DNA from: Mesaphorura yosii
Lineage: Eukaryota; Arthropoda; Collembola; Poduromorpha; Tullbergiidae
Direction of reading: 5' to 3'
Length of the DNA stretch: 64,000 nt
Assembly: GCA_009869945.1 (NCBI GenBank)
Contig: WIXG01000162.1
Span: 104,407-168,406 of the forward strand
Shown here: positions 10,601-50,758 of the stretch, one piece after another
How positions within the stretch are numbered: the first letter of the stretch is position 1
How the letters are laid out: every line of letters begins with the position of its first letter
Position numbers and translations under genes: made by a program
Notes under the pieces: generated by a model
Told to the model about the DNA's origin: nothing
Seen by the model: the letters and a program-made list of their open reading frames with translations, nothing else
Databases searched by the model: none

Positions 10601-13600
10601 TCAAACTGGTCGTACCATGAAGAAAGTTTGCAAAGAAAACTTCCTTGAGGCTTGGAAATATTGCCAGACTGGTAAACCCATTTTAAATACTTCTTATTTA
10701 CGTCGGCATCGGGTAGCTGCGCTAAACGGCCGAATAATGCTGTGAATGGACAAAGGCGTCAATTACACCTATCATTCGCAAGGAGAAAACAGCAGCTTGA
10801 AACTAATTATTTTATAGATGATGAACGGCAAGCATTGAGAGTGCAGACAGAAGTAGTCATGCTGAAATTAGTCCGAAGCGAGCTCATGCTAACGGATCCA
10901 ATGCTGATATTGGAGGACATGGGATTAAATGAACCTGCAGAAGACGACACTTCTGCTATTGATGCCGAATTGGATTCTTTCGAAAAGGCAAGCTTATTAT
11001 GCTAATGTTCTATACTAGAAGATTTGGAGATTAATTAATTTAAAAGAGATCTCACTTCACGAAGGCCGTTGACGATAGACGCGAAAAGTTCATAAAAGGG
11101 TTGACACCCAGCAAGATGAAGAAGCATCAGGATTACGTGCAGATGTTGAACATAATCAACAAAAAATGCGAAGGTATGCCTGAAATACTTTCTCTATCGA
11201 GTCTTTTAGCCTGAACGCATGAACCGGAAAACGAATTGACTTTTCTTTTTATAGAGCTTGAACCTCATGCAACTACCAGCACAGGCTGCGGAGCAGTTGA
11301 AGGCGATGATACTTTGGAGATTTTAGAAGACGATGATGGCAATGTTAAAGAGTTGATTCCAATAAAAGATCCGATCTCCAAGAAAACGTTGGTGGACCCA
11401 GTTAGAAACAGTAAATGCTTGCATGTGTACGGAAAGGCTCAGATAACATCGCTTCTCTTGAAGAACAGGCAGATAAGGTAATCAACCAACACAATCTGCC
11501 CCGCATTTCAACGATGCAGACCAACCAACTTTCACTATTCAATTTCACCCTCTGCCTTGTTTCTAATCAGATGCCCTCAAATGGGTTGCCCCAATCGGGC
11601 GTTCATTAGAATTCAAGACCTGGTCGACGATCCTGAGTTGAAGGAGAAGGTTAGGCTGAAGGTAGCTGAGGTCCAGCGCAGAGAAGCGGAGGTAGAAAAA
11701 ACCAGGAAGGAGAAAGGCAACAGTACAAATGATATGGAATAAGCATGATCCCTTTGTCGTCCGTGAATTATGATTTTGCGGCAAGTGGTATGAATTCTAG
11801 AATTTATTAGGCTGTTTCTTTCCCGGCAGCGTTTCATTGGATAAGTAAGAAAATAAATTGAATTTCACTTACATCCGATGAGGATAGCCAATGTGAACGT
11901 GGTAATTGTGTCAACGGCATTCGCGAAGTCTGCCACTCCAACTCCAGTATTTGCTCCGAGTGTGTCCACAGAAATTTTAAATAAGTATGGCACGAAGACG
12001 TTGAGTATCTTGCCACAAGCCAGGAGGCCCAGGGCGAGCACTACGCGTTTGCGTATGTCCCAATTATCCTATAATTTGGGATTAGAATAGAAATAGAAAA
12101 GGCACATTCCTGCTTAATTAAATAATGACGACGAATGTGGAGGTACTTACTTTAGGCCAAATATATTTAAGCATAGCTTTGAACACTTTGCTTGCTGAGA
12201 CTTCGGATGAACTGCTTTTAAGTCCATTGCGTGCGAGGTTGGAAACTCCAGGATGGAAGCAAAGTCTGATTGGTTGAAATACTCGACCCTTTCACAAATA
12301 TAAGAATATGTTTCAAATTAGCTTTACACTGAACTAGAAACTAAATATCTTCGAGGTTTGCTTCGATTTCATAGTTTTTCATGAACACAATGCAATGTTT
12401 CAAGTACTCCAAGGCCAGTCCACAAGCTTGATTCTTTTCGCACGAAAGTGTTTGTAAGTTAAAAATAGATTCTTCATACGATCGAATTTCCACTCTAATC
12501 AATTCCCGAACAATTTTCTTAAATGATGAACTGTTGGTCGTAATCTGGAAGTCAAATGCTTTGATCTGTTCTGGATTCCACAAAACTAGTTGTACCAGTA
12601 AGCTTAAGTTCCAAGAAAGGTCATTTTGAAGAATGTGCAGCTCAGTTCGTAAATTGTGCTTTTTAATTATATTCATTTTTCTCAAGTCTTTAGACAAAGG
12701 TAGCAGTTGTGGATTTCTAGTAACAAGGTCTGTGAAGTCTAAGGGCACAAAATCAAATGGATTTGCTGTGCCAGGTGGTGGAATAAAACCGTATTCTGTC
12801 CATAGTTTGAAGTGTGGGTGGTTTCCGTAGCTGATGAATATTTCTTCGCCTGTATGAATCTCTCTGTTTGACTTAATCGTGTATGCTCTGTGCTCTTCGC
12901 TGAATGACACCTTTGTATTGGGCACAGGTGAGTGGTTAAATAAGTCAAGAAATGGTGCCAGCGCCATTCCACCTTCACTTTCCAGGAATACAGACCGTGT
13001 GTTCACTACAAACCAGCAGTATTTAAATGATTCAAAATTACAAACTTCATCTTTTGCTTTTCTTGTGCTTGTGCGTGTGTCTTTGGCGTAAAAGAAAGCG
13101 AATGCTGATTGGATGGCTTTCATTTGCTTGTCGATCATAGTTTTGTAGATTGTTGGCAATAGTTGAAGCTCTTGCTCACTTAAGTAGGCTGGAAGTTCAC
13201 GAAAGCTCGACGGTAATGTTTTGATGTACTCAAAGATTGGGGAATCTTTCCCTTTGCCGATTTCTTCGTAAAGATACAGTGCGTACTTATCATGGAGGGT
13301 AATTTCGTCGCGAATGCTTTGAATTTCTTCAGGAGAGTACCTGGATGCAGTTATTAAGCACAGCTCATGTAATTCAAGCAGTTTCTCTTCGGAACTTATG
13401 GTATTCTTTCTCCTACTTGATGAAGCCATGATTCCTCGATAACGGACTTCGTCATTATTTACAGCAGCCAGAAAAACTGCAGGAGTTACTCGAGGACTCT
13501 TAACGAAAAGCTGTCCGCTTGGTCCAGGCTCGAACGTGTGAGATTTTCTTTTAAGCCATTTTAGTAAAGCAATCATATCTGAATCCGCTTCGAGTTGTTG

Positions 13601-14430
13601 AATGGTCCCTGATTGTTGTAAGCTCCTGCGGGAGCGAATTCTTTGCGTCCTTCCCATTTTGTACTTTTGTTAATTCGCCCACATTTGGTCCCTCTCCAAC
13701 AACTTTTAGCTTCTCTTAGGCTCCGCTTCTGTCTCAAATGCGAATTTGGAATTACATCTTCTATCACCTTTGCTTTGGGTTGACGCGACGGATGTTGTAT
13801 ACATGGATGGATGGATGCAAGTCTACTTCTATACAGCACAGCACCAGTCAATGATTTGATCACTCGATAGTAAATGTCTAAAATAATGAGAAAAGTTCTG
13901 TTCAGTGAACATCCCTAGTGCACTTAAAATCATGGCATTATTGTAGAAATCATTCAATTTAAATTGAATTTGGCTTGGAGAAATTGATTTGCTTTGCGAT
14001 TGGTGTGGTTTGATTGGCACTGGCTTGACTTGGTCTCTATTTGATCATCTCATTCTGGTTACACTAAATAGTAAAGGTACATGAGAAAACTAACCTGCAA
14101 TATTTTTAAATTCCTGTTCAAGTACGAAAAACTTCGATTTCCAAGCCCATTTCGAGTTGGAGGCACAGCATTTCTTATCGACGGTGATAGATAGAAGGAT
14201 CTGAAACTACTAGTGTTGATTTTACTACACAGCCTACATCCTAATTGACTAGTGGCACTGCTTAAGGGTTTCCTGCATATATTTTGGTGCAAACTACACG
14301 AAGATTTTGGTAAAGTTAGTCTCACTAAATTAACATGAAGGCTACACGAGTACTTTCGTGAGAATATGGGTGAACTCTTGCGACCGGTACTATTAAGAGC
14401 TGAGCTTAAGGAAAGCATCAGCATCCTCAT
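4605..14430 (-). CDS. ABCB7: Mitochondrial ABC half-transporter ABCB7 (Atm1 type)
   Basis: Inner-membrane exporter that links mitochondrial Fe-S biogenesis to cytosolic iron-sulfur assembly. Eleven exons: 14095-14430, 12151-12288, 11873-12068, 7184-7350, 6324-6425, 5877-6228, 5653-5810, 5425-5591, 5232-5361, 4888-5163 and 4605-4805. They give 740 aa, close to the family's roughly 750. The N-terminus (about 1-112) is rich in Ser, Arg and Lys and poor in acidic residues, as a mitochondrial presequence should be. The membrane domain carries family blocks such as [13 protein letters not shown] and [14 protein letters not shown]. The nucleotide-binding domain has Walker A GGSGSGKST (about 534-542, split by an intron before the Lys), signature LSGGE (638-642), Walker [13 protein letters not shown] and H-loop AHRLS (His about 694). 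Intron 1 contains SETD4 and the 4.5-kb intron 3 contains NSMCE2. Exon 1 is assigned by splice phase and presequence character only, so it is the least certain; exons 2-11 are secure. Confidence 0.93.
7351..10490. other. Left part of ABCB7 intron 3, no gene seen
   Basis: Non-coding sequence between ABCB7 exon 4 and the start of the nested NSMCE2 gene. Short open frames at 7742-8080 (minus), 8212-8566 (plus) and 10011-10342 (plus) show no family resemblance. The segment next to 10.4 kb probably contains the NSMCE2 promoter, but I see no TATA box. Confidence 0.5.
10491..11742 (+). CDS. NSMCE2: SUMO E3 ligase NSE2/MMS21 of the SMC5/6 complex
   Basis: SP-RING SUMO ligase that docks on the SMC5 coiled coil and acts in DNA repair. 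Exons 10491-10671, 10818-10987, 11047-11173, 11255-11477 and 11571-11742 give 290 aa (human protein 247). The N-terminus is a Ser/Arg/Gln-rich tail. The middle (about 60-158) is helical, as expected for the SMC5-binding region. The SP-RING follows: NSKCLHVY supplies the Cys (214) and His (216) ligands and CPQMGC the two distal Cys (235, 240). The C-terminus is a charged helix. The donor of intron 2 appears to be GC (AAG|GCAAGC), the only non-GT donor in my models. The gene lies wholly inside ABCB7 intron 3 on the opposite strand; its likely poly(A) signal at 11852 is about 16 bp from an ABCB7 exon. Confidence 0.85.
11852..11857 (+). promoter_or_regulatory. Poly(A) signal of NSMCE2
   Basis: AATAAA lies about 110 bp after the NSMCE2 stop codon. 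It falls just before ABCB7 exon 3 (11873-12068, opposite strand), so the two transcripts probably overlap in antisense here. Confidence 0.5.
12341..13657 (-). CDS. SETD4: SET-domain lysine methyltransferase SETD4
   Basis: A single uninterrupted frame of 438 aa, matching human SETD4 (440 aa) end to end. The start [11 protein letters not shown] mirrors the conserved Arg-rich N-terminus of the family. RGIMA (about 74-78) is the first SET strand, CWFVVNTR (214-221) the conserved SETD4 block, [13 protein letters not shown] (232-244) holds the NHS motif that contacts S-adenosylmethionine, and EEIFISYG (271-278) ends in the catalytic-site Tyr. A helical Rubisco-LSMT-like substrate-binding region follows. 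Family members methylate histones, and SETD4 has been linked to cell quiescence, including in diapausing Artemia. The gene sits within ABCB7 intron 1 on the same strand, so ABCB7 transcription runs through it. Lack of introns in an intron-rich neighbourhood suggests a retrocopy origin (inference). Confidence 0.92.
   Translation of the reverse strand: MGRTQRIRSRRSLQQSGTIQQLEADSDMIALLKWLKRKSHTFEPGPSGQLFVKSPRVTPAVFLAAVNNDEVRYRGIMASSSRRKNTISSEEKLLELHELCLITASRYSPEEIQSIRDEITLHDKYALYLYEEIGKGKDSPIFEYIKTLPSSFRELPAYLSEQELQLLPTIYKTMIDKQMKAIQSAFAFFYAKDTRTSTRKAKDEVCNFESFKYCWFVVNTRSVFLESEGGMALAPFLDLFNHSPVPNTKVSFSEEHRAYTIKSNREIHTGEEIFISYGNHPHFKLWTEYGFIPPPGTANPFDFVPLDFTDLVTRNPQLLPLSKDLRKMNIIKKHNLRTELHILQNDLSWNLSLLVQLVLWNPEQIKAFDFQITTNSSSFKKIVRELIRVEIRSYEESIFNLQTLSCEKNQACGLALEYLKHCIVFMKNYEIEANLEDI
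13658..14094. other. Upstream part of ABCB7 intron 1 / SETD4 promoter region
   Basis: Sequence between the SETD4 start codon and the donor of ABCB7 exon 1. It must include the SETD4 promoter if SETD4 is transcribed independently. An open frame at 13573-13863 overlaps the SETD4 start in another frame and is not taken as coding. No TATA box was seen. Confidence 0.4.
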
Positions 14431-43943: not shown

Positions 43944-44148
43944 GCATCATTTTAGAATTCGAAGTTTGCACCAGTTTGCATTCATTTATCGTTCATCACC
44001 GTCCACAATGCATGTTTTACAATTTTATTGAAATTGAATTATTACTAAATGAGATCGTACGAAAATTACTGTGCGAGGTTACTCTGCAATTCTGCAGGAA
44101 TTAAAGTCTTAAAGACCCAAATACTTCAGGTTGAGTTCTAACATTCAC

Positions 44149-45093
44149 CTAATCTTCATCCTCCTCAACTTCTTCGTCCTCCAGGCCTTCTTCGCCCTCT
44201 TCGTCTTCATAATCCTCATTTTCATCGTCATCAAACCCACCAATGGAGTGCTTTTGTATGTAGGTGCGAACCTTTCTATTGAATTGCTCAGGAGCTTCTT
44301 TGAATTCCTTCGCAGCAACCACATTCAATGGATCATCAAAATTGAGTAGGTCCTAAAATAACAAGTGGTTGACGAATATACAAAGCTTGGCGAAGGCAAT
44401 TTAATACACCATAAAAATGTACTGAACTTACCGTAAACAAAGCATTCACTCCCCAGACCACATCTTTCAAGCAGCGTGTCGGTGCCCAGCCCTGCTCATC
44501 AATTGAGGACTGGCGTAAGATCGAGAGACAAACCGTACCTTCCTCAGTGATGTTGGGATGCCAAATCTTTGTAGTGCATTTAATTTTTGGAGGCTGCAAT
44601 ACATGCATCACAGGTGTCCAAAATGAGTACTATAAACGTCAATCTGCGAGTAATTAAAATCACTTACAAACATGTTGTAGTTGTCAGGAACAATTACGTG
44701 AAACTGAAATGAGCCATCTTTCCAATGCCCTTCATCAGGCGTAATGGTAACTTGAAACTCATGCAAAGCATCGACATCGCCCCACTTCAATTTGCATTGA
44801 CTTGGAAGCGTCTCTTTAAGCTCATTAATCTGCGAGGATTTTGCAAGGATGTGAGTTAAGGAAGTTTTCGTAACTCTAATTGCGCTGCACAATTTGAGAT
44901 ACGTTGGCAGTTGGCAAATTCTCACCTCTTTCTGAAGAAGACGGTCACGCACGCTGAACTTTTCCTTCGGAAGCTCTGCTTGCTTCTTATCTTTGTGATT
45001 ATTGTTCATATTATCATCACTGCTATTACCGCTCTTCGTCTCGTCTTCAGGTTCTTCTGGGTCCTTCTTCATTTTCTTGACCAGCGCGTACAT
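44149..45093 (-). CDS. UBE2F: NEDD8-conjugating E2 enzyme UBE2F with acidic C-terminal tail
   Basis: E2 that passes NEDD8 to cullins (CUL5 in vertebrates, with RBX2). Exons 44926-45093, 44668-44829, 44432-44593 and 44149-44352, all phase 0, give 231 aa (human 185). The N-terminus [11 protein letters not shown] matches the E1-docking start of UBE2F. An Asn/Asp/Lys-rich linker precedes the UBC fold: [39 protein letters not shown] with catalytic Cys about 132, [30 protein letters not shown]. Residues 205-231 are a tail of 27 residues of which 21 are Asp or Glu. Vertebrate UBE2F ends before this point. The fold and active site are complete. Confidence 0.92.
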
Positions 45094-45544
45094 GATGTGG
45101 ATGAAATGAAAATGACGATTACAGTATCGGCGAATTTAGATAATCATGAAGCAGCACAATGTCGCCTAAAGAGACGACCAGTCTTATTAGCAATTATTCA
45201 CAAAGACGACAACGACAACCGCCTGGAATTAATTATTACGAGTTTACTGCTGAATTTTCCTCACCTTTCCAGATATGCCACTAATACTTTACGGCCTAAT
45301 TTCACAAACACGAGCCAGGAGAGAATTCGGCGCACGACAATAATTGGCAGTTCAAAGACTGACAGCGACGAAATAAAATGTGATCTTGCGCGCTGGTTAA
45401 TAAATGCTATACTTGTGCACTCATTTCCATAGATTACAAGATAGAACGTTGGATTGGATATGAGAGACAATGATTGTGTACTCGCAAACGATGCACTAAT
45501 GAGATGACCCTTTTATTACGTAGAAAATTACGAATTTACAAGAC
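45094..45544. other. Intergenic UBE2F/tectonic
   Basis: The 451 bp between the tectonic stop and the UBE2F start on the same strand. It should contain the tectonic 3' end and the UBE2F promoter. The plus-strand frame 44911-45432 is a shadow of UBE2F exon 1 running into it. Confidence 0.45.
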
Positions 45545-47978
45545 CTAATTTGAATGCAAGCATGACCCAAAGACAGAAATCAGTACAACTAACAATATTG
45601 GAATAAAGTGTGCATTACAACTACGAAAGGTCGAACATCCCTTGGACGACGAGAACGGGTAGAAGAAGTCTGACGGCAATTGAACTGAAATGGTTGGCCA
45701 CTGAGCAACTTTGTGAGTCGGCATGCTCGTGATGTCGTGAAACTCCACCGTTGTGCTCAGAGAAAGAAATTTGTCGTGACTTCCAGTTCCGGCTCCTGGC
45801 TTCAGATTTCCGATTGGGTCGCCAAACTCGTAAATAATGCCACGTATTTGCGCTTGTGGAAAGACGACTGGACCAACATGGGCAAATATGATTTGAATGT
45901 GCAGTGATGTTATGATTCCATTGTTACAGCCATTCGAGAACAATGATACTGAGTTGGGTGTTGATGTGAACGGATTGTGAACTAAAGTGATCGGGATCCA
46001 GTCGGAGAGAGACTGGAGTATGAATGGGTCCCCAAACGACGCCACCATCCTGTTCAATAATGAGAATCAGACAACCGAAATGCACTCGTAAAAACCTCAA
46101 AGTCCGTGTGGCTATTGCAATCTTACCGTTGAGAAAAGTTGGCGGGTTGGGTTCCCAGGAGAATCAATCCGAGGTCCGCTTTGAGTTCTTCACAATACTT
46201 GTACCGTGAGATTGGAAGCTCACAGCTGGATTTCATGTTCATGCCGAATAGAATTGGTCGCCTATTCTTCTGATGACAAGTCCCAGCGTTAATTATGCTC
46301 AGGTAGTAAAAGGTATCATGAAGGAGGGCAACACCAAACGGTTCCTTGTCATCCGGCGCTGTGTCTTGCAACTTGACAAAAGTTTCGTTGTTGCTTTTCC
46401 CAATTTCTTTCATCATACTGGACTTTCGTGCCTTGACATCTTCATTTGTGATGAGCGTGCCTACGATAACTTCTTTTCCAAAAAGATATCCCGGATTTCC
46501 ACTTTTGGGTAAGTCAGGGATTTGTCTCTTAGGTGCAGTGGCGTTTGTCTGGGTAGAAATTAATGCCTGGAATTCATCCTTCCACAAATATCGCACCTTG
46601 AACTGCTGCTGCAACTTGAGTGACTTGGACCCAGCGGGCGGAGAAACATTTGTGAACTGAAGCTGTACGAGTACGCTTAAAATTCCAGCTTTTCCTTCGT
46701 GTATGAGCGTCACCTGCACATTCTTGAGTGCGTTCTTGCATTGCTTTGACTTGGAGTCGTATTTTGGAGCTGGAAGCTGATCCCCATCCATCGCAACGCA
46801 ACTGCTTAGCTTGTCATCTGTGCAAGCTGAGAAATTAAGGCTGATGAGCTTATCGTCGGTACTCTTCAAGTCAATTCTCCCGACAATTGTTGTGTTTGGG
46901 CTGAAGTAGTTCTTCGCGTTGAAGTTGTCCACTGATTGACAACTTGTTGCAAGATCGCTACCGTCTATTTCACATTGGCATGCCACATCGGAGTCTTGCA
47001 AGAATTTTAGTGGCTCGTGACCAAGACACGCTTTTCCATGCACGTTCGACGGCAATTCTGCAAAGGCAAATGAATAAAAGTTGAAGGAACAGTTCGGATG
47101 AAAGGAGGAAGAACGCGGCTAAACCACAATTGGTTAGTACCAAAATACTGGACTTGAAGCTCCGTGTCATTCTGACTTTCAATCTGCTGTGCGCTTAGAA
47201 TCGGACTTCCATACTTGTAGCCAGTGGTCGAAATCTTGAGTTTTTGTACGTTTAGTGCTGCTAACGACGTCCATCGAAATCCGGGCTTCACGAATTTAGA
47301 TTTAAACTGCGAAAATTATTACACAGATTACGCGTTACACGTATGCACGATTGTTGACTCTTGGAGTTTCAAACCTTTGATATTGGAACATCGTAGACCT
47401 GCTCCTTTTTAAAATTGTTTGACACAATGCAAAACACATTGTTGCTCTTGCGGTGAACGAGGAAAGGCGTGTTATTGCTGTAAATGTATTCCTGGCGGTA
47501 GCACGCTTGCTCTTTCACCTTGCTTGACACTCCCAGCCGACTAATCAAGTCATAGTCCATGCATGATGAAAACGTCTCCTTGTCCTTCGGAGTACAGTCG
47601 AGATCACAACAGCAATTAATTTCGCATTTGTTTACCTGAAAATCGACACGCATCACGTATCATTATCACTGACGCACAGATTCAAGCTGGCTGATGTTCT
47701 CAAGCTAGTTGGTCACTTACGTATTGGTCACAAAAGCAGAATGGAGACCGGATTGATTCTGGTGCCTTCGGCTTGGCCGTAGTTGGTGACTTGGTAGTTG
47801 ATGTCGTGGGCGTAGTAGTAGTTGTGACGCTTGTAGTCGTTGAAATGGGTGATGCTGAGGTATTTAACGTCGTAGGTGGTGGCAAAGATGTAGTCGTACT
47901 CTGTGCATCCACAAACAATGATGGGCCGCTTATCACGAGATGAAGTAGTAGCAGAACATTGTGGGAAGTGACGGCCAT
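45545..47978 (-). CDS. TCTN: Tectonic, ciliary transition-zone protein
   Basis: Secreted or membrane-anchored component of the MKS/B9 complex at the ciliary transition zone. Exons 47721-47978, 47375-47635, 47141-47306, 46127-47057 and 45545-46049 give 706 aa, near human TCTN2 (697). A signal peptide (about 1-26, LLLLHLVISGPSLFVDAQ) is followed by a Thr/Ser/Pro-rich stalk (about 27-75). Next is the hallmark Cys cluster PFCFCDQY, NKCEINCCCDLDC, then FSSCMDYDL and ACYRQE. The large body contains GNPGYLFGKEVIVG and the RYKYCEEL segment. The protein ends in a hydrophobic helix (FIPILLVVLISVFG), which would anchor it. Arthropods usually have a single tectonic, so I do not assign a paralogue number. 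The ATG lies 10 nt after the B9D2 stop, in the same exon. Confidence 0.9.
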
Positions 47979-48170
47979 GGATGCCAAACTAGTAGGATTC
48001 GACTCCAAATGTATCGAAATTACGAAGAATGATCCCGAGCTCCAGTGACACGGTGCCGGAGGGCAGCGTCTTCAGCCGAAATCTATCTGCAGAGCTGCCA
48101 ATGATGTCGACCTGACTCAGCTCAGTCGACCCACCAAGGAAGTAGCGTGCAACTTCGTCCTGAACGGTTC
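47721..48170 (-). promoter_or_regulatory. Shared exon joining B9D2 stop and tectonic start (bicistronic junction)
   Basis: The last B9D2 exon (47989-48170) and first tectonic exon (47721-47978) are contiguous. Between the B9D2 TAG (47989-47991) and the tectonic ATG (47976-47978) there are 10 nt (47979-47988, TTTGGCATCC), too few for a poly(A) site and a promoter. The stop context CCTACTAG also resembles a 3' splice acceptor, so an alternative or trans-splice just before the tectonic ATG is possible. Confidence 0.7.
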
Positions 48171-48763
48171 CTGTGACATTCAAGCGTGTTCTCAATGAAT
48201 TCCACACTAATCCCACCCAATCACTGCTAGCTTGCATATAAAAAGAGGCTACCTGAAGGACGCCAAGTTGGAACGTCAATAGTGTGCGTACCGGGCGATG
48301 ACGGAATGTGGCAAACGCCGTACCCTGCTAAATCACTGCGGCCAAACTGATCTTGGCGATACACCTCGAGCAAAATCTTTGGCCAACCTTAATTCAAGAA
48401 CCATTCCATGAAGTGAACCCTGTACCTGCATTTTATGATTGTACGTATTTGAACAAAGACAAAAACTCTTACCGGCGAGTCCCTTCGACACAAATTGAAT
48501 GTCAATCGGGTGACACCAATGAGGACCCTCTGTAAAGTCCAGCGGAGTATCCACTTGGGTCTGACCCTCCCTCGGCCCTGCAACCTTCTTCCAGCTATTT
48601 CCTGGGAAGTATTGATTACAAGCGTTAAGCGTGCTTAATTTTACGACGAAACCATAGCGTATTGGCATTTCCTACCTGCTTGAATTGCCCACCTACAAAA
48701 TAGACCAGTTTTCCCGAAATTTTTGCCACTTTTCACTTGCCCAATTACATGTACCTCAGCCAT
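47989..48763 (-). CDS. B9D2: B9 domain-containing protein 2, ciliary transition zone
   Basis: C2-like B9-domain protein that, with B9D1 and MKS1, forms the membrane-side module of the MKS complex; required for the transition-zone barrier and for tectonic localisation. Exons 48676-48763, 48473-48601, 48253-48387 and 47989-48170 give 177 aa (human 175). Start MAEVHVIGQ is the usual B9D2 N-terminus. Then come [68 protein letters not shown] and [15 protein letters not shown]. The domain is complete. The last exon runs without a break into the tectonic start codon. Confidence 0.95.
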
Positions 48764-49721
48764 TGATTGCGGGGTTCACGATGATGATAATGCAATAGAT
48801 ATTAGTGCTCATTACGAAGTTCAAAATAAGCCAACTCGATTCAATTTATCGATTGTTGCGTGGCATAGTAGGAAACGAAATGAAGGGGAGATTCGTCAAG
48901 AGTGCAGTGCAGATGCGATTAGTTGACAAGTTCTCATTTGTTGTGCCCATACGCTAACCACGGTAACGATCCCTGCGTTGACGCTGCCGCCTCGGCTCTT
49001 ATGATGTGTTCCCAGAGAAAGTGACGTGAAGGTGCAGGATTCTACACAATTCCATCCGAAAAAGGCAAGGCAAGACAAGGCATATAATTGCAGATGCACG
49101 AACAAAGGCTCCAGCGAAATCATTTAATGTAATTTCTCCATATACAGTTGTGCACGTTTTTTGGTTTTGCACAACGTTTGATTATATAATTACATAATTA
49201 GATTGCTACCAGTTCGCTCTTGTCGGTCCTTTCTGTATAAATTCATCGTGTGCATGCGAAAGCAGCCTGAACTCTGAATAACAATTTGCACCGCTCACAG
49301 CTGTACAGCCGATGAATTCATAGCAAATGCAAAAAAGGTCGCGACATTTACGAGTTGCAAGTTACGAGTAACTCTCAATTTTCCGCTCGCGCTTGTGGTC
49401 TCATTGCATAAATGCGTGTTTTTTTTGGCACACCTTCGCAGAATGCGGGGCGGGGTGGGATGGAATCCAGTGAGACGTGCGGTCGTCGAGGACAGGAGTT
49501 CTGAGAGCGAGCCTGTCATGATCCTCACGATTGTTGATTCAAGTGGCTCTATTTCTAGCTGGTGACAGCTGCCAATTATGCAGAAGTAGCCCCATTAGCG
49601 GACTTTCCGTGTAAATGTTTATCTCGCTGTAACCGCAATCAGTTGAAGGCTGATCGATCACCGATCGAGAACATGATTCCAGATCTCTTAGTTTGCACAT
49701 TTGCACACGGGCGCAAGCGCC
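48764..49721. other. Divergent intergenic region B9D2/thaumatin-like gene
   Basis: About 1 kb upstream of both genes. It must hold the B9D2 promoter; no X-box-like RFX site was identified by eye. Frames at 48723-48926 and 49539-49940 are not supported. Confidence 0.4.
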
Positions 49722-49729
49722 TATAAATA
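49722..49729 (+). promoter_or_regulatory. TATA box of the thaumatin-like gene
   Basis: TATAAATA lies 78 bp before the next gene's ATG, implying a start site near 49750-49760 and a 5' UTR of about 50 nt. TATA promoters suit regulated, strongly expressed genes. Confidence 0.65.
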
Positions 49730-49806
49730 CAAACACCGTCGCACCGGTCACCAACACTTCAACGACGCCATCACAAGAGCAATCAATTCGACTTTCTGAT
49801 TTGAAG

Positions 49807-50758
49807 ATGAAGCTGCTGATTCTCGCTGCGTTGCTGAGCCTGGCGTCTGGCCGCCAGATCGCCTTCACGAATCGCTGCTCACACCCCATTTGGATCTCCC
49901 CGCTCACCAATGCGGACGGGCCCCCACTGGCTGAGGGCATTCAGCGACTGGAGGCTGGGGCCCGCTTTACTTATCAAATCCCAGACGCAGGTTGGGGCGG
50001 TCGCTTCTGGCCGAAGCAAGGTTGCGACGGATCTGGACACAACTGCGAAGTTGGGCAGAGCATGCCGCCATGCCTGGCCAACGGCTGTGACCCTCCTGCC
50101 GAAACGAAGGTCGAGTTCCACTTCCCACCGAACTGGGACGTAAGTTAACACTGGACAAAGCGTTCAAATACCTTCAGATATCCGAATGCTCATTCAGCTC
50201 TGTTCTAATTACAAATTATCTGATCTCACTCAGATCACTAACGATGTGTGGTACGATGTGAGTCTCGTCGACGGATACAGCTTGCCAGCTGAAATCATCC
50301 CCAGCTTCCAAGTACGAAATTACAACAACTGAAGCGATACAGTTAGCCATGTTAGTTCTTCCATGTAATGGCTGTTTAATTTCGTGCAGGGTGGTTCTTG
50401 CGTGAGCACTAACTGTGCGATGTCGCTGGACTCATGTCCTACTGGAGAGAGCGATGTCGGTGACCTCCGCGTGATAAAGAACGGACGAACGGTGCAGTGT
50501 CTGTCTCCGTGCAAGAAGTGGAATTACCCCGCGCCCTTCGGCATGGGTCGTGACGAGATGGAGCAGCCTGGCGTCCAGCTCTGCTGCCCCACCCCACCCA
50601 TCTGGCCAGAGGAGTGTCGTGGAGGGTTGGTGGTCCGCACGCAGTACGTCGACCTCGTCCATCGTCAGTGCCCCTCCGCCTACTCATACTCCTACGACGA
50701 TGAGGCAGGTCTTCACAACTGCCCGAACAACGTCGACTTCCAAGTCTCTTTCTGCTAA
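49807..50758 (+). CDS. Secreted thaumatin-like protein
   Basis: Extracellular thaumatin-fold protein of the PR-5 type, known from plants, fungi, nematodes and some arthropods, where antifungal roles are proposed. Exons 49807-50139, 50234-50311 and 50390-50758 give 259 aa. Signal peptide MKLLILAALLSLASG. The mature chain begins IAFTNRCSHPIW and has all 16 Cys of the eight-disulfide type. Acidic-cleft positions look present: Arg in GRFWP, Glu in KVEFHF, Asp in VWYDVSLVDGY and Asp in YSYDDEAG. It ends NCPNNVDFQVSFC. The coding sequence is clearly GC-richer than neighbouring genes, with many C- or G-ending codons. I used the ATG at 49807 because it begins a good signal peptide; the open frame upstream of it is 5' UTR. 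Confidence 0.95.

Follow-up and report, generated by a model that had tools for sequence, protein, structure and literature searches.

Can two genes whose products belong to one ciliary complex, lying 10 nt apart on one strand of an animal genome, be the two cistrons of a single mRNA, and if so, how would ribosomes reach the second of them? The question is raised by a 64-kb window (the whole stretch of DNA analyzed here) from the assembly of Mesaphorura yosii, which comprises 93.0 Mb in 1127 contigs. On the minus strand of the window, between 48763 and 45545, the sequence as read, spliced and translated harbors a complete gene for B9D2 followed head to tail by a complete gene for tectonic (TCTN). 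The initial annotation regarded this pair as an apparent bicistronic, operon-like unit encoding two partners of the MKS/B9 complex of the ciliary transition zone.

Two Complete Frames in Tandem

The coding exons of B9D2 (48763–48676, 48601–48473, 48387–48253 and 48170–47989, minus strand) amount to 534 nt together with the stop codon, and their product is matched by the Pfam profile B9-C2 along its entire length (188.9 bits, profile positions 1–166 of 166); the 13 residues of its C-terminus pair in the alignment with ILRNFDKFGVET of Orchesella. The tectonic coding exons (47978–47721, 47635–47375, 47306–47141, 47057–46127 and 46049–45545, minus strand; 2121 nt with the stop) encode a protein recognized by the Pfam profiles TCTN_DUF1619 (70.9 bits) and DUF1619_N (36.9 bits), both above the cut-off. 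Judged by eye, the N-terminus of this protein looks like a candidate signal peptide. The introns of the two genes, three in B9D2 and four in tectonic, are all of the GT..AG type (7/7). These matches bear out the gene names given in the initial annotation, and the presence of both the B9-C2 domain and the tectonic domains agrees with the assignment of the two products to the MKS/B9 transition-zone complex.

The positions reported earlier for the B9D2 stop and the tectonic ATG proved right in the spliced sequence as well: the two are exactly 10 nt apart within a shared exon, and no splice junction is needed between them (Table 1). The arrangement is thereby confirmed as real, i.e., two complete, distinct and conserved proteins are encoded in tandem on the same strand.

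Table 1. Features of the B9D2/tectonic locus and of its surroundings in the 64-kb window.
Feature	Position	Strand	Description
B9D2, putative first cistron	47989..48763	-	4 coding exons, 177 aa; the single Met is the start
Tectonic (TCTN), putative second cistron	45545..47978	-	5 coding exons, 706 aa
Spacer TTTGGCATCC	47979..47988	-	10 nt, from the B9D2 stop TAG (47991-47989) to the tectonic ATG (47978-47976)
Shared exon	47721..48170	-	B9D2 last coding exon, spacer and tectonic first coding exon
ATGTAA start-stop pair	48745..48750	-	Out of frame, B9D2 nt 14-19; sole other ATG of the B9D2 coding sequence
Possible upstream ORF	48756..48812	-	ATG at 48812, 18 codons, overlaps the B9D2 start
AATAAA, presumed shared poly(A) signal	45512..45517	-	28 nt past the tectonic stop
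Ubiquitin-conjugating enzyme gene (PF00179)	44145-45093	-	Starts ~450 nt past the tectonic stop
Thaumatin-family gene (PF00314, 38 bits)	49654-50755	+	Starts near 49807
Open frame with SET domain (PF00856)	12344-13669	-	442 codons

A protein search of the genome returned four exon-level matches to tectonic, all of them within the B9D2/tectonic locus. This copy number is taken from the protein search, since the genome search with Pfam PF07773 missed even the tectonic of the window itself, so distant paralogues are possible. The B9-C2 profile also matches two other contigs of the same genome, C31 and C2, and by eye, these matches look like B9D1 and MKS1.

Among the named sequences, the best match to B9D2 comes from the springtail Orchesella cincta (64% over the aligned part). 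In the B9D2 tree, comprising 36 rows chosen from 98 protein-search matches plus the sequence from the window, the latter groups with Orchesella and with the sequence P0002 (support 100/100), a position suggesting that the source organism is a springtail or its close kin. The protein searches with tectonic revealed four homologues in all, including one at E 4.9, which is not significant: the first search scored 7975 candidates and gave one match, and the second gave three, the last at E 4.9. The flood of candidates in the first search was probably brought about by the Thr-rich stretch of tectonic. With B9D2, scans of viral_contigs and genome_contigs detected no relative.

As to the surroundings of the pair, the ubiquitin-conjugating enzyme encoded beyond tectonic is presumably most like the NEDD8 enzyme UBE2F. 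The thaumatin-family gene and B9D2 are divergent, with ~1 kb of upstream sequence common to both.

Start Codons Along the Putative Message

In the spliced coding sequence of B9D2, ATG occurs only at offsets 0 and 13. The second of these belongs to the ATGTAA pair (Table 1), from which 528 nt of the spliced message run to the tectonic ATG without a single AUG; therefore, the next start available is that of tectonic. For comparison, ATG is found at a density of ~18.5 per kb window-wide, and 39 times in the 2121 nt of the tectonic coding sequence. The shortage of AUG in B9D2 is mostly due to the protein having one Met. With the protein kept fixed, the sequence was free of out-of-frame ATG beyond nt 16 in 6.9% of synonymous shuffles and in 4.6% of the draws from pooled codon use, and the number of out-of-frame ATGs as such (one) was not unusual (P 0.22 with the shuffles and 0.16 with pooled codon use). 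Overall, the AUG poverty of B9D2 permits scanning and is only suggestive, at P 0.05–0.07, of selection.

A single Met is also a feature of 7 of the 62 full-length B9D2 homologues, i.e., those of the 98 protein-search matches that passed a selection on length and start. The B9D2 proteins of Orchesella (in a model without ~30 N-terminal residues) and P0002 have no internal Met in their aligned, non-inserted parts; two unaligned insertions in P0002 are taken here for read-through introns. Common descent explains the lack of internal Met in these two proteins, too.

The contexts of the two start codons are alike (T at −3, G at +4), the tectonic start being not stronger than that of B9D2. By eye, five other starts of the same genome (those of B9D1, the ubiquitin-conjugating enzyme gene, the thaumatin-family gene, MOCS2A and MOCS2B) display A or G at −3. 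A weak start of B9D2 suits leaky scanning, but a weak start of tectonic does not. The possible upstream ORF would carry some of the ribosomes past the B9D2 start, provided that the 5′ end of the transcript lies upstream of 48812; jointly with ATGTAA, it could divert ribosomes to tectonic.

Signals for Transcript Ends and Structure of the Junction

Thirteen variants of the poly(A) hexamer were sought on the minus strand from 48900 to 45300. The canonical AATAAA occurs there once, at 45517, past the tectonic stop, and ATTAAA does not occur in this interval; the rarer variants are situated at 48850 (upstream of B9D2), at 48437 (in a B9D2 intron) and at other sites inside tectonic, and none of the 13 is present in the 10-nt spacer. 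The earlier view that there is no room for a poly(A) signal or a promoter between the frames agrees with the size of the gap and with this lack of AATAAA and ATTAAA, a layout that still allows for a promoter inside B9D2. The absence of AATAAA is not diagnostic, because MOCS2A of the same genome carries AATAAA (by eye) within one exon and in its last intron.

A search for an RFX X-box upstream of B9D2 gave a best score of 10.5 (48953–48967), which was assigned no weight, since 35 sites scoring ≥11 are present in the 64-kb window. The RNA fold predicted at the B9D2/tectonic junction was not distinct (z 0.53), a result bearing on internal entry rather than on scanning, and Rfam yielded no match at gathering scores over the 64-kb window. 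The stop codon TAG of B9D2 (47989–47991, minus strand) might at the same time serve tectonic as a weak splice acceptor.

A Known Bicistron in the Same Genome

The MOCS2 locus of the same genome was used as a control. In Drosophila, MOCS2A and MOCS2B are produced from one bicistronic transcript, and this organization is well conserved according to the accessible text of two reports (PMC2276209, PMC4528330). In M. yosii, the locus (L010, contig C40) features the MOCS2A ATG at 1115 and the MOCS2B ATG after an acceptor at 1468; upon splicing, the order is MOCS2A TAA, the 7-nt sequence ACTTACG and MOCS2B ATG. The MOCS2A product has 93 residues and matches ThiS (32.8 bits), and the MOCS2B exons were found by MoaE. 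The 282 nt of MOCS2A contain no ATG beyond its start; however, 60% of codon shuffles with the protein fixed are ATG-free as well, so for a frame this short the AUG count is uninformative and only the layout is informative. The MOCS2A start is overlapped by a two-codon upstream ORF (ATGCGATGA).

In both MOCS2 and B9D2/tectonic, two subunits of one complex are encoded by tandem frames with a tiny gap in between (7 vs. 10 nt). They differ in that the bicistronic nature of MOCS2 has been published and that of B9D2/tectonic is deduced here, as well as in the size of MOCS2A, which is half as long. Hence, the genome keeps at least one known bicistron, and the layout of B9D2/tectonic looks like that of MOCS2.

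Further tight pairs were surveyed in 20 pieces of 10 kb plus the window and the MOCS2 locus (267,114 bases) by means of a coding score based on hexamers, for which 56 long ORFs served as the training set. The survey, which is without power for estimating frequency and for which the MOCS2A reference value was taken regardless of frame, returned 15 candidates; B9D2 and tectonic themselves fell below the threshold. None of the three closest candidates (gaps of −23, −1 and 12) was accepted, two of them being situated in one locus, seemingly a single multi-exon gene.

Proposed Leaky Scanning and the Alternatives

Slightly better than even confidence is placed here in the interpretation of B9D2 and tectonic as cistrons 1 and 2 of one mRNA, with tectonic reached by leaky scanning. 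A single capped and polyadenylated mRNA would be transcribed from a promoter situated upstream of 48763, its end being set by the signal at 45517. Translation of B9D2 would begin at the first AUG, in its seemingly weak context; ribosomes leaking past this start would meet only the minimal AUG–UAA and then the AUG-free stretch leading to the tectonic start, and some of those engaged by AUG–UAA may resume scanning toward tectonic. The complete frames, the 10-nt gap inside one exon, the order of AUG codons and the single AATAAA are read directly from the DNA; from them we infer the single transcript, where its 5′ end lies, the leaky scanning and any advantage of coupling the output of two partners of one complex. 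Taken together, the gene models, the gap, the lack of AATAAA and ATTAAA before 45517, the AUG order and the MOCS2 layout point to a bicistron as the most likely interpretation. On the other side stand the shuffle P of 5–7%, the weak context of the tectonic AUG and the non-diagnostic character of the AATAAA lack. A more far-reaching version, in which the pair represents an ancient locus of hexapods or pancrustaceans that is obligately bicistronic, with B9D2 kept AUG-free and leaky scanning fixing the subunit ratio, is rather doubtful.

The main rival is a promoter of tectonic's own residing within B9D2, in its last exons or introns. It would give rise to a monocistronic tectonic mRNA with a short leader; the two genes would then be merely tightly packed, and B9D2 transcripts may extend as far as the poly(A) site used by tectonic. 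This explanation is somewhat unlikely in our estimation, but it is serious: at 93 Mb, the genome is small by arthropod standards, and the accessible text of the FlyBase survey states that dicistronic loci often have monocistronic forms too, with the 3′ gene usually expressed from a downstream promoter (PMC4528330). By itself, it leaves the AUG-free body of B9D2 unexplained, though that feature is only suggestive. The bicistronic mRNA could also be translated by reinitiation, with ribosomes finishing B9D2 and restarting 10 nt further on. The shortness of the gap favors this route, but initiator tRNA must be regained before a restart, for which a first frame of 177 codons followed by 10 nt is unfavorable, making reinitiation quite improbable. 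For the bicistrons of green algae, the influence of the first-start context likewise spoke against reinitiation as the main route (PMC11892635).

Still less probable is the use of an acceptor site at the tectonic ATG or immediately ahead of it, either by a spliced leader in trans or by an alternative 5′ exon in cis, with the stop TAG of B9D2 acting as the acceptor. Scored on a matrix built from 16 local acceptors, the TAG at 47989 attains 2.0 and the CAG at 48087 attains 2.8, both within the leave-one-out range of these acceptors (−0.7 to 7.3); at the same time, the TAG is the third of the 12 non-acceptor AGs in the exon, one decoy reaching 4.6. The nematode spliced leader SL1 (RF00198) had no match in the genome, which says little, as no control matched either, and none of the literature matches listed contained a report of spliced leaders in springtails. 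Finally, an assembly join or a gene-model artefact could have brought the two frames together. The distribution of the assembly over 1127 contigs gives some ground for this suspicion, but neither frame is truncated or broken before the junction and the two proteins end as expected, so an artefact is scarcely credible. Overall, the initial proposal of a bicistronic unit stands in part: the layout, the AUG order and the same-genome MOCS2 control with its 7-nt gap speak for it, but the term “operon” in the spliced-leader sense is unsupported.

Significance

The B9D2/tectonic locus is probably a new example of a known arrangement, most likely a bicistronic gene, and it is of interest because the proteins paired in it belong to one ciliary complex. 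Should both be encoded by one mRNA, the amounts of the soluble B9 protein and of the membrane-associated tectonic would be coupled through transcription and set by the choice of start, and an RNA-level knock-down of either B9D2 or tectonic would hit both. With MOCS2 counted in, this animal would then have two pairs of complex partners that each share a message, and functional pairing in animal bicistrons, an idea rarely put to the test, could be tested here directly.

The novelty would be lower if the fly B9d2/tctn were already a known dicistronic locus. The FlyBase numbers, which we take to be CG42730 for B9d2 and CG42731 for tctn, leave room for this, since they are neighboring, as happens when one model is split. 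In the open-licence literature, no paper was found with CG42731, nor one with two or more of four fly gene numbers including CG42730. Likewise, no description of B9D2/tectonic as bicistronic was encountered among the listed matches from the open-licence literature, that on springtails included. The accessible part of Pratt et al. 2016 (PMC5087661) contains neither “cistronic” nor “operon”.

Comparison with Known Systems

With spliced-leader operons of the nematode type, the pair shares the tandem genes and the tiny gap; the difference is that no spliced leader is known for the M. yosii genome. A closer parallel in terms of mechanism is provided by the bicistrons of green algae, for which, according to the available portion of the report, leaky scanning was tested in vivo as the mechanism where the first start is weak and no other start intervenes, and it held for a reporter with a gap of 14 nt as well (PMC11892635). 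Like these algal loci, B9D2/tectonic has a seemingly weak first start and no start codons before the second one apart from the minimal AUG–UAA; unlike them, it bears T at −3 in both contexts, the first algal start tending to be the weaker of the two (same source).

The dicistronic pairs of Drosophila are backed by cDNA, RNA-seq and start-site data, and B9D2/tectonic by its DNA sequence. Translation of the second cistron in two Drosophila dicistronic transcripts has reportedly been tied to a first cistron that lacks in-frame AUGs (Wall et al. 2005, by its title). FlyBase counts 159 dicistronic pairs in this insect, by the accessible text of the survey (PMC4528330), a number that gives no support to the view of the initial annotation that such a unit would be unusual. 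As stated in the same text, 45 of these pairs are made only as dicistronic mRNAs, in 45 of the 159 both genes have monocistronic transcripts, and Mocs2 is named as a functionally related pair (PMC4528330). The exclusively polycistronic loci have gaps of −34 to 319 nt, and the 10-nt gap of B9D2/tectonic falls inside this range; as in the fly pairs, it separates two full proteins (PMC4528330).
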